DNA from: Pseudovibrio denitrificans JCM 12308
GTDB lineage: Bacteria; Pseudomonadota; Alphaproteobacteria; Rhizobiales; Stappiaceae
NCBI RefSeq assembly: GCF_001310815.1
Contig: NZ_BAZK01000007.1
Span: 124,001-188,000 of the forward strand
Length of the DNA stretch: 64,000 bases
Reading direction: 5' to 3'
In this document: piece after piece, positions 39,225 through 61,142 of the stretch
Layout of the letters: every line of letters begins with the position of its first letter
Numbering within the stretch: position 1 is the stretch's first letter
Made by a program: the position numbers and the translations under genes
Notes under the pieces: model-generated
The model's input: the letters and a program-made list of their open reading frames with translations, nothing else
Told to the model about the DNA's origin: nothing
Databases searched by the model: none

Positions 39225-40301
39225 ATGATTGAGATTCCAACACTTCTGGACGCGCGGACGGTTCAATCGGCTCGTTTGAAAACACGGGTTCTGTTTTCCG
39301 GCCCTGAGGACGGCGTGCCGATCATCTTTGTTCATGGCAACCTTTCTGCGGCTACATGGTTTGAGGAAACCATGCTGCGCCTGCCGAACATCTTCCGCGC
39401 CATCGCGCCAGACCTGCGCGGGTATGGTGGCGCTGACCCTGCTGCGTCGGTGGACGCCACCCGTGGTACCAAGGATTTCTCGGATGATCTGGCCGCGCTG
39501 ATGGATGAGCTGGGCGTGAAAGCCGCGCATATGGTTGGACATTCCCTTGGCGGCGGTGTGCTGTGGCAGTTCCTTGCCGATTACCCGCAGCGTGTGCTCT
39601 CCCTCACACAGGTGAGCCCGTCCTCTCCCTACGGTTTCGGCTGCTCTCGCGCTGATGGAACGCCGTGCTTTGAAGATGGCGCAGGCAGTGGCGCGGCAGC
39701 GGTTAACCCGGAGTTCGTTAAGCTGTTGATGTCGCGGGATACCAGCACAGACAGCGACTTTTCTCCGCGCAACATCCTGAACACGTTTGTCTGGAAGCCA
39801 CCTTTTCAACCCAAGCGACTCACCGACTATATGGCCACCGTTTTCGCCCAGCATACCGGCGACAAATCCTATCCGGGAGATGTGATCCCCTCCGCCAACT
39901 GGCCGGGCGTTGCACCGGGCAACTTCGGCAGCATCAATGCACTCGCCCCCAACCGACAGGCAAACCCACTGGGTTTCTGCAAGGTTCCAGTGAAACCGCC
40001 CGTGTTGTGGGTGCATGGTGCAGATGATCTGGTGGTCTCCGATGCCTCCATGTTCGACCTCGGCTCATTGGGCAAACTGGGCTTCCTGCCCAGCTGGCCG
40101 GGAGAAGCCATCTTCCCGCCGCAGCCCATGGTCACCCAAACCTCCAACGCGCTCGACCACTACGAGCAAACCGGCGGCACCACCGAGCGCCACACCATCC
40201 CCAACTGCAGCCACACCGCCTACATCGAAAAGCCCAAAGAGTTCGACCAACTCTTCCACGCCTTCCTCCAAAAACACGCAAGCGTGGCTGAGGCGGGGTG
40301 A
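39225..40301 (+). CDS. Alpha/beta hydrolase
   Basis: Alpha/beta-hydrolase of 358 aa. Oxyanion region VHGNLSAATWF near residue 35, nucleophile Ser107 in GHSLGG, acid Asp in VHGADDLVVSD, and catalytic His in NCSHTAYIEKP. A cap insert lies between residues 130 and 240. No signal peptide. Followed by the first copy of the structured RNA element. Confidence 0.87.
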   Translation: MIEIPTLLDARTVQSARLKTRVLFSGPEDGVPIIFVHGNLSAATWFEETMLRLPNIFRAIAPDLRGYGGADPAASVDATRGTKDFSDDLAALMDELGVKAAHMVGHSLGGGVLWQFLADYPQRVLSLTQVSPSSPYGFGCSRADGTPCFEDGAGSGAAAVNPEFVKLLMSRDTSTDSDFSPRNILNTFVWKPPFQPKRLTDYMATVFAQHTGDKSYPGDVIPSANWPGVAPGNFGSINALAPNRQANPLGFCKVPVKPPVLWVHGADDLVVSDASMFDLGSLGKLGFLPSWPGEAIFPPQPMVTQTSNALDHYEQTGGTTERHTIPNCSHTAYIEKPKEFDQLFHAFLQKHASVAEAG

Positions 40302-40413
40302 GGTGGAATTCTGCAATACTATTGGGTTTCAGAGTTGAAATCTCGCCATTGAGAATAGTCTAGATAAATCATGATGTTGCTGGTCTGTTCCGGTCAGCAT
40401 ACGCTCACCAATA

Positions 40414-40629
40414 CCACCCCTTTGCAAAGCAGCAGCACGCGCCAGTCCGTGCAATCGGAGAGGTTAGGCACTCCGACAGTAGCAAAGCCTGGTCAAAGGA
40501 GGTGGTGGTTAGGTGAGGTTTGAATTGAAACTCAAAATAAGGAAGGCCCGAAACAGACTGGTACTCTGGTTCCGGGCCATCATTAAAGTAACCTAACAAC
40601 TGGGGCGGGGAGTTGAGGCTTCCCGCTCC
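40414..40629 (+). ncRNA. Structured RNA with small ORF, copy A
   Basis: Repeated element also at 59355. Helices: P1 40414-40424 with 40494-40505 (11 bp, one bulged A) covering the ribosome site; H1 GCACG/CGTGC (40435-40452); H2 TCGGAG/CTCCGA (40455-40476); H3 GGCCCG/CGGGCC (40545-40578) inside the ORF; H4 40602-40612 with 40619-40629 (11 bp). P1, H1, H3 and H4 carry paired changes relative to copy B. Sequence GCAAAGCCTGGT before the ribosome site is identical in both. Reads as a leader that hides the Shine-Dalgarno site, a short coding part and a terminal hairpin. Not recognised as a known family. Confidence 0.7.
40513..40596 (+). CDS. 27-aa basic amphipathic peptide (copy A)
   Basis: GTG start 10 nt after AAGGAGG. 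The peptide begins MRFELKLKIRKARN and ends WFRAIIKVT; it has 9 Lys/Arg in 27 residues and a hydrophobic C-terminal half. The second copy at 59451 has the same length, with 7 synonymous codon differences and mostly conservative replacements, which supports translation. It could be a membrane-acting type I toxin or a leader peptide; neither is shown. Confidence 0.6.
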   Translation: MRFELKLKIRKARNRLVLWFRAIIKVT

Positions 40630-40712
40630 TAGTCTCTCTAATATACCCTGTCTTCTCTAGTCCTTCAAGAAACCTGCCGGTCTTCCAGCCCCCTGAATGT
40701 TGCTGAGACAAG

Positions 40713-41734
40713 CTAAACACCCTCGGCAAACTCTTCGAATTCAGGGCGGTCCCGCCAGGAGCCGTCGGGCCAGAGGGCTTTGAGGGCTTTGGCGATGGGA
40801 TCGCTCCAGCCTGTTTGCCTTGGGATTGTGCGTCCAGCAGTTCGTCGCCGATCAAGCCGGGGCAGGCTTGTTCCAGCACCTCAATCAGTGCCTTGGCCTG
40901 AGCCAGATCTTTGGTGACCTTGGTGGCCGTATGCGTTCGCTTTTGTGAGAGGATGAGCTTGTGCACGGCGTAGCGGGCTGGACGCGGCACGAACACGGGA
41001 ATGCCTGCGCCGTAAGGCAGAGCAGCGGGGGAGGCATCGTCGATCAGCCATGCCAGATACTGCAGGCTCATAGCGCCCGCATCTAACCCTTGCAGCTCCA
41101 GCGGCTGCTTTTCGCCGCGTTTGCGTGTTGGCGTGAGCAGATCCACAACAAAGCCGATGCCAGAGCGAAAACGCGAGGACTTGGCACGGCCATCCAGTTC
41201 CGGAATAGGCTCAAATGTGGGGTCGGCATCCTTCAGGATAGAGAGCATATCAATGCCTTCATCTGCTTTGATCGCCAGTGAGGCGGCCACGAGATCCGCG
41301 TCGTCTGTTGCCAGCTGGGTGGAGGGCAGCGTGCAGCCCAACAGCAGCGGGTAGCATTGATAGGCCAGAGTGCCCACTAGAATAGCACCATTGCGGAACA
41401 GGCCATGATAGGCCATGGCATCCAGCACACGACCGGCATAACTATGGGTGGAAAGCACACCAACTTTGTTGAGTACGCTCAGGTCTTTACGGCGTGCTCG
41501 GGCGCGCTCACTGGCCTGTTTGATCCGCTCCACTTTGGCCTGCGTTTCCGGCTGCAAAGCAGGCCCCACATAAAGGCTCTTGCGTCCGGCACCCACGGGC
41601 ATTTTGACGAAGACGTTCTCAACATTCCCCTTCGCTTGCTGATAAACTGAGCCCCGAAGAGCCCTGCTATCATCATGCGTTTTCTGAATGTAATCCGCAG
41701 CGAGGTTTTGATAAGCGAGAGGAAGATCTGTCAT
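40713..41734 (-). pseudogene. GSU2403-family nucleotidyltransferase-fold protein, frameshifted
   Basis: Nucleotidyltransferase-like protein (NTP_transf_8). NGAILVGTLAYQCYPLLLG is the start of the transferase core and TDDADLVAASLAIKA holds the metal-binding Asp pair. The frame as read runs to 40583 with a Pro/Ser-rich tail, but restoring one base near 40810 gives GWSDPIAKALKALWPDGSW and a stop at 40713, a proper C-terminus of about 340 aa. Adjacent 32-bp palindrome at 41742 sits directly upstream of its start. Function unknown; family often lies in defence or plasmid contexts. Confidence 0.75.
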
Positions 41735-59137: not shown

Positions 59138-59354
59138 CACCTTCCTGAAGAGGTGGTAACTCCGCTTTGGTTCGGTGCTCGGGTACTGAGCTAATCTTAG
59201 TTTGCGCAATGGGGAGCGGGCAAATGCCAAGCAATGTTAGGCAAAAGGAAGCGTTAAACGCTGATGAGATTGGCCTGGGGAATGCACTAAGCAGTTTGGG
59301 CGGGAGAGGATCGGGGGACGCGATGACATCCCCGGCTTGATAGGCTCTCTACAG

Positions 59355-59564
59355 CCACTTCCTTACGAAGCAGCAGCGCGTGTCAGTCCGCGCAATCGGA
59401 GAGTTAGGCACTCCGATCGAAGCAAAGCCTGGTAAGGAGGTGGTAGTTGCGTGAGAGTTGAACTCAAGTTCAGCATGAAAAAGGCTCGGAAAAGATTGAC
59501 CATCCGCCTCCGAGCCCTCTTCAAAATCACATAACGGGAGTGGGGGGCGAGAGCCTCCCATTCC
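59355..59564 (+). ncRNA. Structured RNA with small ORF, copy B
   Basis: Second copy of the element at 40414. P1: 59355-59365 with 59433-59443 (11 bp, one G-U); H1 GCGCG/CGCGC (59376-59393) around a loop ending CAGTC; H2 TCGGAG/CTCCGA (59396-59416); H3 GGCTCGG/CCGAGCC (59483-59516); H4 12 bp 59537-59548 with 59553-59564 closed by a GAGA tetraloop. Compared with copy A, pairs change on both sides (A-T to G-C in H1, C-G to T-A in H3 and H4). It lies between arsM and the IalB gene, on the opposite strand to both. Confidence 0.7.
59451..59534 (+). CDS. 27-aa basic amphipathic peptide (copy B)
   Basis: GTG start 10 nt after AAGGAGG. The peptide runs MRVELKFSMKKARK to RLRALFKIT, the same length as copy A with shared R2, E4-L5-K6, K11-A12-R13, R15-L16, R21-A22, K25 and T27. 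Ten Lys/Arg. Likely translated only when P1 of the leader opens. Confidence 0.6.
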   Translation: MRVELKFSMKKARKRLTIRLRALFKIT

Positions 59565-59625
59565 TATCTTCCTCAATATAAACCTTAAAGCTTAAGGCTT
59601 CAACCGTGGGTCTTGGCAGGCAAAA

Positions 59626-60138
59626 TTAGCCAGTTGTCTCATCTGGCAGCAGCACTGCCATGCGTTTGGTGAACTCATCCCAGCTGCGGGTAAAGCCGAT
59701 CAGGGAGTATTTCAGCGCCAGCTTTTTGCGGTCACTGGATTTTGTGACCACGATAGACATGGCTTTGCCGCGTTTGAGGAAGTTGACGATGGCCTTGTTG
59801 GCGTTGAAGGCAGCCTCGCACCCATCCGGCTGACAGGTGATCAGCTTTGCATCGAACAAGGCATCATCATCGATACCAATCTGGATTCCACTGGGAATGT
59901 GAATTCCGAGCGGCAGCTTGAGAATGGCGGCGTAAACATCCTTATCAAGTTTGCGAAACATGATGGAGTTAATGAGAGCCCCGTTGTCAAGCCGGATCTC
60001 AGCGTAGACTTCGCACAAGTCGCTGCTGCATTTGACAGACCAGTCCTCTTCATTGGAAGGCTCAGTGGTGCTGTACGCGCTTGCACCCTGAAGGAAAAAG
60101 AGAAGTGCCGCTGTCAGCAGGGTCCAGATCGGTTTCAT
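59626..60138 (-). CDS. Invasion-associated locus B (IalB)-like protein
   Basis: Exported protein of 170 aa with a signal peptide ending GASA-YS. WSVKCSSDLCEVYAE, LPLGIHIPSGIQIGIDDD and CQPDGCEAAFNA match the IalB family, with its paired cysteines. In Bartonella the family is linked with host cell entry; elsewhere its role is unclear. It lies 14 nt downstream of the trimeric adhesin gene, so the two are co-transcribed. Confidence 0.83.
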   Translation of the reverse strand: MKPIWTLLTAALLFFLQGASAYSTTEPSNEEDWSVKCSSDLCEVYAEIRLDNGALINSIMFRKLDKDVYAAILKLPLGIHIPSGIQIGIDDDALFDAKLITCQPDGCEAAFNANKAIVNFLKRGKAMSIVVTKSSDRKKLALKYSLIGFTRSWDEFTKRMAVLLPDETTG

Positions 60139-60152
60139 GATCTACATCCTCG

Positions 60153-61142
60153 TTAGAAGGAGAAGCCCAGACCAGCGCCAGCAGTGACGTTGTTGCTGAA
60201 GTCTGTTGCCACAGATGCAGTGACAGCCATGTTTTCGGTCGGCAGGAAGGCAACCTTCAGAGCAGAAGCGCCTTTGCCTTTGAAGTGACCAAAACCGCCG
60301 GACACGGAGAAGCCATGCTTGCCGCCCTGAAGGACTGGAGCGTTTGCAATCGCAACTGCCATGGCCACACCACTGCGCAGCTCATCAACATCGTTCTCCA
60401 GTGACACAATGCGATCGGTGTTGGAGGAGATGTTCGCAGCGTTGGTTGCGATGTTGGTGGTGTTTGTCGCGATGTTCTGCTCGTTCACACCAATACGGGA
60501 GGTATTAGACGCGATATTGGTGGCGTTGGTGGCGATGTTGGTGGTGTTTGTTGCGATATGTCCTTCATTCACGCCGATGCGAGTCGTGTTGGAGGCAATG
60601 TTGCTCGTGTTTGTTGTGATGTTGGCTTTGTTCTGGTCGATGGAAGCCAGGTTGACTGCAATTGCATTTGCATTGGTTTTGATGTCGTCAACGTTGGTTT
60701 GGATGTTAGTTGCATTCAGCTCGTGTGCAGCTTTGTTTGAAGCTATTGCGGTTTTGTTGGTTGCAATATCGCTCAGGTTTGTGCTGATTGCAGACGCATT
60801 TGCATTGATACGCAGCTTCTCTGCTTCAAGTGCGCTCTGGTCAGCTTTGCCGTTGATCTTTGTTGTAAGTGCATCGCTCAGATCCGACTCATCAACTTTG
60901 GCGTTGATTTTGAGCTGAAGAGCGCTGCTGAGGTCGGATTCATTAATATCACTTATAGTTGCAGTGATGCCGGTTGCTGTGCCGGTCTGGCCAGTAGTTG
61001 TTGAACCGCTTGCAGAGCCACTGGTGACGGAGCCACCGGTGGTGGTTACAGTACCGTCAGATACAGTGATATTAGCGGCGTGAGCGGTGCTCATGCCTGC
61101 GATGAGGGCCACGGCAGCAGCGGAAAGCTTCAATGCGTTCAT
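60153..61142 (-). CDS. Trimeric autotransporter adhesin (YadA-like)
   Basis: Protein of 329 aa with a signal peptide (ending STAHA-AN). A Ser/Thr/Gly-rich stretch is followed by a long coiled coil of Asn-rich heptads (units of NIATNTTNIATNATN and IASNTSRIGVNE, residues about 130-245), then the C-terminal YadA anchor (LRSGVAMAVAIANAPVL to AGAGLGFSF). No large YadA head; the stalk is short, so it would project little beyond the surface. Start ATG follows AAAGGACAT. Followed by IalB. Confidence 0.88.
   Translation of the reverse strand: MNALKLSAAAVALIAGMSTAHAANITVSDGTVTTTGGSVTSGSASGSTTTGQTGTATGITATISDINESDLSSALQLKINAKVDESDLSDALTTKINGKADQSALEAEKLRINANASAISTNLSDIATNKTAIASNKAAHELNATNIQTNVDDIKTNANAIAVNLASIDQNKANITTNTSNIASNTTRIGVNEGHIATNTTNIATNATNIASNTSRIGVNEQNIATNTTNIATNAANISSNTDRIVSLENDVDELRSGVAMAVAIANAPVLQGGKHGFSVSGGFGHFKGKGASALKVAFLPTENMAVTASVATDFSNNVTAGAGLGFSF

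Follow-up and report, generated by a model that had tools for sequence, protein, structure and literature searches.

The two elements at 40414 and 59355 of the window (the whole 64-kb stretch of DNA analysed here) belong to a family that is real and had not been classified before; it occurs in rhizobia-like bacteria, on chromosomes and plasmids and in some phages, and is best read as a type I toxin-antitoxin variant. Judged from its sequence, each element is probably a type I toxin-antitoxin-like module made up of a silenced mRNA, an antisense RNA and a cationic peptide. Re-reading of the window confirmed both copies in place, with the common layout that a sequence-only reading had described (Table 1), and a covariance model of the leader (R1, alignment A1, built from 23 leader sequences) matched at both elements and nowhere else in the window up to E 10. 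That reading had counted two copies; covariance-model searches of the same genome located five places, three on the window contig and the others on contigs C25 and C31. Nor did it note several features described below: the kissing loop between leader and ORF, the promoter and terminator of the antisense RNA, the family to which the peptide belongs and the spread over plasmids and phages.

Table 1. Parts of the two elements, in window positions.
Feature	Position	Strand	Basis or remark
Copy 1 candidate sense promoter, weak, TTGCTG-17-TACGCT	40377..40405	+	score 6/12
Copy 1 P1 5' strand (anti-SD), CCACCCCTTTG	40414..40424	+	fold
Copy 1 hairpin H1, loop 40440-40447	40435..40452	+	two-sided changes in 3/5 pairs, 22 copies
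Copy 1 kissing site A GCCAGTC, H1 loop	40441..40447	+	partner 40556-40562
Copy 1 hairpin H2	40455..40476	+	all cells paired over 22 copies (100%)
Copy 1 P1 3' strand, CAAAGGAGGTGG, SD AAGGAGGT at 40496-40503	40494..40505	+	fold
Copy 1 ORF, GTG start, 27 aa VRFELKLKIRKARNRLVLWFRAIIKVT	40513..40596	+	pN/pS of its subtype lowest in this frame
Copy 1 hairpin H3 within ORF; minus strand = predicted antisense terminator hairpin	40545..40578	-	
Copy 1 kissing site B GACTGGT, within ORF	40556..40562	+	
Copy 1 end hairpin H4: predicted mRNA 3' end; antisense 5' hairpin	40601..40632	+	fold
Copy 1 antisense promoter TTGAAG-17-TATATT	40640..40668	-	sole promoter-like site reported in 40300-40760
Copy 1 predicted antisense RNA	40536..40633	-	ends inferred from promoter + terminator; fold z -2.72
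Copy 2 P1 5' strand CCACTTCCTTA	59355..59365	+	fold
Copy 2 hairpin H1, kissing site A GTCAGTC 59382-59388	59376..59393	+	
Copy 2 hairpin H2	59395..59417	+	fold
Copy 2 P1 3' strand with SD, TAAGGAGGTGG	59433..59443	+	
Copy 2 ORF, GTG start, 27 aa VRVELKFSMKKARKRLTIRLRALFKIT	59451..59534	+	
Copy 2 hairpin H3 within ORF, predicted antisense terminator	59483..59516	-	
Copy 2 kissing site B GATTGAC	59494-59500	+	
Copy 2 end hairpin H4	59534..59566	+	fold
Copy 2 antisense promoter TTGAAG-17-TATATT	59575..59603	-	sole promoter-like site reported in 59230-59700
Copy 2 predicted antisense RNA	59478..59568	-	ends inferred; fold z -3.04

Leader fold, proposed Shine-Dalgarno lock and kissing loop

Both elements fold more stably than expected from their composition. 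Stretches of 241 nt gave fold z values of -3.54 (copy 1) and -5.98 (copy 2), with 0/200 dinucleotide shuffles as stable in either case, and the leaders alone gave -2.55 (3/200 shuffles as stable) and -5.31 (0/200). The pairing of a 5' strand with the Shine-Dalgarno (SD) strand before the GTG, previously put at 11 bp, was confirmed in both copies; this stem, P1, contains one bulged A in copy 1 and one G-U in copy 2, and AAGGAGGTGG precedes the GTG in both. The earlier picture of a structured leader that hides a strong ribosome site, with a short coding region and then an end hairpin behind it, is supported.

Weaker R1 matches proved to be a second (sister) subtype with the same layout; the window copies, with their GTG start, are subtype 1. 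The earlier claim that P1 pairing is held despite base change stood in part, in that both window copies pair, but the 22 aligned copies of the window subtype offered no P1 pair with a two-sided change. In these copies 97.7% of P1 cells were paired and the changes were one-sided, as the SD side is constrained, and the cognate-versus-permuted test was moderate (78/10,000 permutations as good; 20 sequences, kinship of copies ignored). In the sister subtype, where P1 lies just upstream of the SD, cognate strands scored 5.90 versus 4.54 (0/10,000; n=98, kinship ignored). There the SD itself is complementary to a CTCCGG-type strand 3' of the end hairpin and the two strands covary (5.91 versus 5.24, 0/10,000 permutations as good; n=100, kinship ignored), with pairs such as CCGGAG/CTCCGG, CAGGAG/CTCCTG, CTGGAG/CTCCAG, TCGGAG/CTCCGA and CTTGGAG/CTCCAAG. 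The SD is thus hidden in the mRNA fold in both subtypes, by a 5' strand in the window copies and by a 3' strand in the sister subtype; such folds are common among type I toxin-antitoxin systems. Of the two-sided hairpin changes proposed for the leader, those of H1 held at three of five pairs, and H2 showed them at 3/6 pairs, each from one sequence alone (22 aligned copies).

Family-wide comparisons were made on a set of 122 copies. From 212 anchor hits we obtained 162 distinct stretches, 131 of them with a parsed ORF; three were then dropped by eye as badly parsed or decayed and six failed loop parsing. The set is non-exhaustive (the anchor missed L015, for one) and includes related copies, and some ORF or loop parses in it are wrong (e.g., L001, L004, L009), which lowers the cognate score given below.

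The H1 loop in the leader is complementary to a loop within the ORF, in both window copies (sites A and B, Table 1) and in other copies with other sequences (CCAATC/GATTGG, TCCAG/CTGGA, GCAAG/CTTGC, CCAAC/GTTGG). In the ORF loop, natural copies show a silent Leu difference, CTG versus TTG. Over 111 unique loop pairs the cognate mean was 5.49 versus 4.58 for non-cognate pairs, with 0/10,000 permutations as good and a mean of 3.63 for letter-shuffled loops; this test, like all our permutation tests on loops and strands, ignores the kinship of copies. In the 22-copy alignment 99.4% of kissing-site cells were paired, versus 4.5-43.5% when the sites were slid, and seven cells had a two-sided change versus 1.4 in shuffles; two pairs were affected, which is not unusual (160/500 shuffles). 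When loops were compared genome by genome in five genomes, 76% of the 25 cognate loop pairs and 14% of the 118 non-cognate ones contained a Watson-Crick run of 6 or more; four ORF loops were here entered by hand, and one copy came from another genome, its loops being identical. Since the H1 loop and the loop of the predicted antisense terminator both complement the ORF loop, they share a recognition sequence, and self-locking of the mRNA and antitoxin binding should therefore compete.

Opposite strand and peptide

The only promoter-like site reported in the region around each window copy is a minus-strand one immediately beyond the end hairpin; shuffled versions of the two regions contained 0.3 and 0.4 such sites on average. 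A sigma-70-like minus-strand promoter scoring at least 8/12 was present 34-48 nt past the stop in 104/122 copies, versus a mean of 2.8 (maximum 7) in shuffles and 6 on the plus strand of the same copies, in a position window chosen following an open scan. The RNA predicted from this promoter has two hairpins in each window copy, with the fold scores given in Table 1. Departures from Watson-Crick pairing in H3 were mostly A-C rather than G-U on the plus strand (117 versus 39; 61 elements versus 12), that is, G-U on the minus strand, so that H3 is better taken for a structure of the opposite strand. An A-rich tract (at least 5/9) precedes H3 on the plus strand in 86/122 copies, versus 10% of ORF 9-mers, and is predicted from the sequence to be the U tract of the antisense terminator. 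H4 and H1 lean to the plus strand (G-U 181 versus A-C 108 over 121 copies, and 24 versus 11, respectively). H2 leans to the minus strand (A-C 92 versus G-U 62), perhaps as an artefact of parsing.

In copy 1 (40545-40578) and family-wide, the Lys-Lys/Arg codons conserved immediately ahead of T-R in the peptide coincide in part with the predicted terminator U tract of the antisense RNA, and one stretch may therefore serve both strands. Lys codons at this overlap were 40 AAA versus 19 AAG; codon choice gives no extra support to dual-strand use, because the other Lys codons show 10 versus 5.

On the sense strand, promoter scores over the whole upstream stretch reached 8 or more in 31/122 copies, near the shuffled 20%. 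Just before P1, 43/122 copies scored at least 7 (shuffled mean 8.6, maximum 15), in a position window chosen once the cluster was seen. The sense promoter appears weak in sequence and stands out by its fixed position only.

These observations bear on how the leader might be opened. A ligand, temperature or antisense RNA had been proposed to open it; antisense control alone is supported, by the recurrent minus-strand promoter, and the antisense RNA more likely closes the mRNA than opens it. A riboswitch or thermosensor controlling the short ORF would account for a conserved leader, invariant core pairs and a sequestered SD, but the same tiny ORF follows the leader wherever the ORF is readable, the antisense promoter recurs and a coding-region loop covaries with the leader. 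Moreover, the window gave 0 Rfam matches at the gathering score and its best sub-threshold matches were chance-like, none of them credible, in line with the earlier statement that no known family has this layout; neither did the elements of 10 further loci match, where the gathering score returned group II introns alone, all in L044. We consider a ligand- or temperature-opened leader scarcely credible. A known Rfam RNA was rejected for lack of any gathering-score match to the element in the window or these 10 loci, and a lead to the c-di-GMP-I riboswitch, which GCAAAGCC in our estimation resembles, was rejected as no such match occurred among the sub-threshold Rfam results.

The ORF encodes a peptide of roughly 28 residues, 25-32 aa in most copies, after a strong SD, short (below about 60 aa) as in the type I toxin-antitoxin class. 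Its consensus is MW..P.S.TL..KKTR..W....RV.F, from 80 aligned rows; these are the 80 of 87 peptides with 28-31 aa and an M start, and so are nearly all of subtype 2. The pN/pS ratio in frame 0 was 0.41 for subtype 1 (95 pairs) and 0.59 for subtype 2 (1,673 pairs; pairs non-independent in both). For the two subtypes it rose to 0.70 and 1.02, respectively, in frame +1, and to 1.61 and 1.56 in frame +2. Codons 2-12, which lie ahead of the hairpin, also had their lowest ratio in frame 0 (0.41 and 0.48). Three copies (L012, L020, L021) carry in-frame 12-nt insertions, three (L016, L087, L100) have early stops and one (L023) a frameshift.

RNA structure also occupies a large part of the ORF's 3' half, as might be expected of a pair of non-coding sRNAs with an incidental ORF. 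However, the SD, start and frame are kept, selection is strongest in the coding frame also over codons 2-12, the pattern KKTR..W....RV recurs in the 80 aligned peptides and the 12-nt insertions keep the frame. An incidental ORF was rejected on the pN/pS minimum in the coding frame, and we hold the sRNA-pair explanation to be very improbable.

In several subtype-1 copies (L010, L011, L012, L018 and L020 among them) another ATG or GTG lies 4-8 nt before the peptide start. It opens a very short ORF, mostly of 3-9 codons but of 26 in L011, which runs over the peptide start and is possibly a translational-coupling ORF.

The peptide had no relative in the libraries searched. Five peptides each gave 0 matches to E 5 in Pfam and NCBIfam, the three compared with PADLOC had no match, the three compared with PHROGs had a best E of 0.07, and the PDB held no match to the peptide; of the 80 aligned peptides two had weak Pfam matches (E 0.011 and 0.025) to unrelated families, and these libraries gave no profile match to Hok, Ldr, Ibs, AapA or other named families. 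Type I toxins usually, though not universally, form a hydrophobic membrane-spanning helix. Our peptides do not have the character of one: over 108 distinct peptides the mean net charge was +5.4, the mean GRAVY 0.15 and the mean best 15-aa window 0.44, and two strands were predicted for one sister-subtype peptide. At the beta angle the hydrophobic moment was 0.57 for one half (shuffled 0.33) and 0.61 for the other (shuffled 0.30), and the moment at the alpha angle in the C half (0.295) equalled that of shuffles (0.298). AlphaFold modelling of this peptide, from a Rhizobium sp., with 80 sequences placed strands at 5-14 and 19-28 (pLDDT 71, pTM 0.22), which suggests with modest confidence a beta-hairpin.

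Distribution on chromosomes, plasmids and phages

The covariance-model search of the genus and related genomes that had been suggested as a check recovered further copies, and these show covariation. R1 matched 12/16 genomes of the genus, including the one studied here, at 39 places (E<=0.01), and 22/87 genomes of the taxonomic family, in two genera of seven (E<=0.1). R2, the covariance model of the sister subtype, was used for searching only, because its RNAalifold structure lacks H1. It matched 24/397 genomes in the order sample (E<=0.01), 23 of them credible and 18 of these outside the family; 3/385 in the class sample, namely the genome studied here and two weak matches; and 4/398 in the phylum sample (E<=0.001), all from the same order. 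Genome counts of these large searches are lower bounds, because stricter filters were applied. Beyond the order there was no credible match in the class (385) and phylum (398) samples. One match in the order sample (G405), two in the class sample (G671 and G787) and one in a Reyranella MAG (L129) were judged, by eye or ORF parse, to be chance matches. Occurrence is patchy, with no copy in 4/16 genus genomes and in 373 or 374/397 order genomes at the thresholds used. An initial DNA blast (11/61 genomes) was superseded by these searches.

A DNA pattern run on one genome per species (84,980 species) returned 62 stretches, of which we take 59, by name, to be from Hyphomicrobiales; the carriers presumably of this order include Pseudovibrio, Roseibium, Stappia, Phyllobacterium, Microvirga, Aureimonas, Sinorhizobium, Rhizobium and Mesorhizobium. 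The other three came from the 'Rhodobacterales' strain BW5, the Reyranella MAG and a Maricaulis MAG, the last with both peptide and layout present. Up to eight copies occur in one genome (G009), and tandem copies were seen in G353 (three at 381-nt spacing) and G283 (two at 328 nt). Group II introns have inserted in three elements, once just past the end hairpin and twice within the ORF (L044:1854-2145, L051:1198-1422, L070:691-915). A decayed, leader-only copy, its peptide and antisense promoter unrecognisable, lies 1.4 kb downstream of an intact one (L018:2869-3080, = L024:1502-1713).

A RepC gene (G000:C7:114690-115205) lies on the window contig, 9 kb ahead of the window, which therefore belongs to a repABC-type replicon or an integrated one; contigs C25 and C31 had no RepC match. 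RepC scored above cut-off on the contigs of 7/8 copies in G009, whose RepC contigs make up about 1.2 of 6.0 Mb (a hand estimate, with tandem pairs non-independent), and of 3/4 in G005. With a sister-subtype peptide, tblastn matched 39/72,556 plasmid records at E<=0.1; at E<=5 the 43 records comprised 17 conjugative, 11 mobilizable and 15 neither, and among the 43 plasmid rows listed no annotated gene lay under the match, one record having no annotation. Among phage-labelled records 14/50,697 matched at E<=1, with the three lowest-ranked above E 0.05; one of the 14, MW462191, has bacterial-looking genes and may not be a phage. The R2 leader stood directly 5' of the peptide in 3/5 stretches examined (pRmeGR4a, Ochrobactrum phage POI1126 and Rhizobium phage RHEph10); in MW462191 it was weak before the peptide (E 0.038), with a strong match at another place, and the Sinorhizobium meliloti T073 psymA copy (L184:2841-3087) keeps the peptide ORF with no R2 leader before it. 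For the window subtype, DNA similarity gave nothing for copy 2 against plasmids or copy 1 against phages, and a subtype-1 peptide had no match among plasmid records. Beside copy 2 is an ORF with a YadA-like anchor domain (60156-61142, minus strand), adjoining an IalB-domain ORF (59629-60138, minus strand).

In four annotated plasmid regions the neighbours were psiB, methyltransferase, DUF736 or rep genes. Together with a peptide that is mildly hydrophobic, cationic and predicted to form a beta-hairpin, unlike most type I toxins, this setting would suit a small antisense-controlled regulatory peptide that is not a toxin, with a role in, for example, plasmid transfer or entry, or envelope or ribosome modulation. 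However, silencing at several levels, tandem arrangement, decay of some copies and carriage by plasmids and phages are what addiction modules typically show, and we regard such a regulatory peptide as unlikely.

Proposed mechanism and relation to known systems

Under the toxin-antitoxin reading, the plus strand would be transcribed into an mRNA of some 220 nt, and this would encode a short peptide, cationic and amphipathic, with a predicted beta-hairpin fold. Two locks would keep the full-length mRNA inert: pairing of the SD with the 5' end (window subtype) or with a strand past the end hairpin (sister subtype), and kissing of the leader H1 loop with the loop in the coding region. Trimming, processing or breathing may then open the mRNA. 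The stronger minus-strand promoter past the end hairpin would produce a short two-hairpin antisense RNA that covers the 3' half of the ORF and whose terminator loop repeats the recognition sequence of H1; this RNA would seize the opened mRNA at the ORF loop and block or destroy it. If the antisense RNA were lost, e.g., with a plasmid, the opened mRNA would be translated and the peptide would harm the cell. Against this reading stand the weak sense promoter, the moderate P1 covariation in the window subtype and the absence of plasmid matches for it, the patchy occurrence, a peptide unlike the usual hydrophobic helix, and the minus-strand lean of H2, a feature not needed by the model.

Tandem multicopy loci are known from ldr/rdl and ibs/sib of Escherichia coli, which the present elements resemble in having tiny peptides with (here predicted) antisense RNAs, but the sequences are unrelated by the libraries searched, with SIB_RNA sub-threshold at 19.7 versus 56 bits. 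Of the two, ldr/rdl is described in PMC8167048 as a tiny peptide with an antisense RNA. According to the same paper, hok/sok of plasmid R1 is plasmid-borne, with an mRNA whose 3' end folds back on the 5' region and an antisense RNA (PMC8167048); plasmid carriage, the 3'-to-5' fold-back and the antisense RNA would be shared by our elements, as predicted here. They differ from hok/sok in that the five peptides compared with each library have no Pfam or NCBIfam match and the predicted antisense RNA spans the ORF and the 3' end; several copies have an ORF of 3-6 codons overlapping the start, which may be a mok-like coupling ORF.

In aapA/isoA of Helicobacter pylori the full-length mRNA is translationally inactive, its SD sequestered by a long-distance 5'-3' interaction, and the isoA-type antitoxin contacts the aapA mRNA through two kissing loops (PMC8167048). 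The SD-hiding fold predicted here is similar to this sequestration. However, no Rfam or Pfam relation was found for our elements, which have a second lock between leader loop and coding-region loop and a predicted antisense terminator within the ORF, and AapA1 has an amphipathic transmembrane helix (PMC8309996), versus a predicted beta-hairpin here. The proposed mechanism would work like hok/sok and aapA/isoA; no sequence membership in either was found.

A more specific proposal, to which we give an even chance, is that of a new Hyphomicrobiales type I toxin-antitoxin family with a beta-hairpin peptide, in which H1 is an internal copy of the antitoxin loop, self-lock and antitoxin compete for one seed in the ORF, and drift of this seed acts as an address code insulating up to eight modules per genome. 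If right, the toxin-antitoxin reading would account for loci at which no gene is listed, on plasmids of rhizobia, Agrobacterium and Roseibium and in some rhizobial phages, would bring a beta-hairpin peptide into a class in which membrane helices prevail, and would provide a natural set of kissing-loop pairs that differ in sequence.
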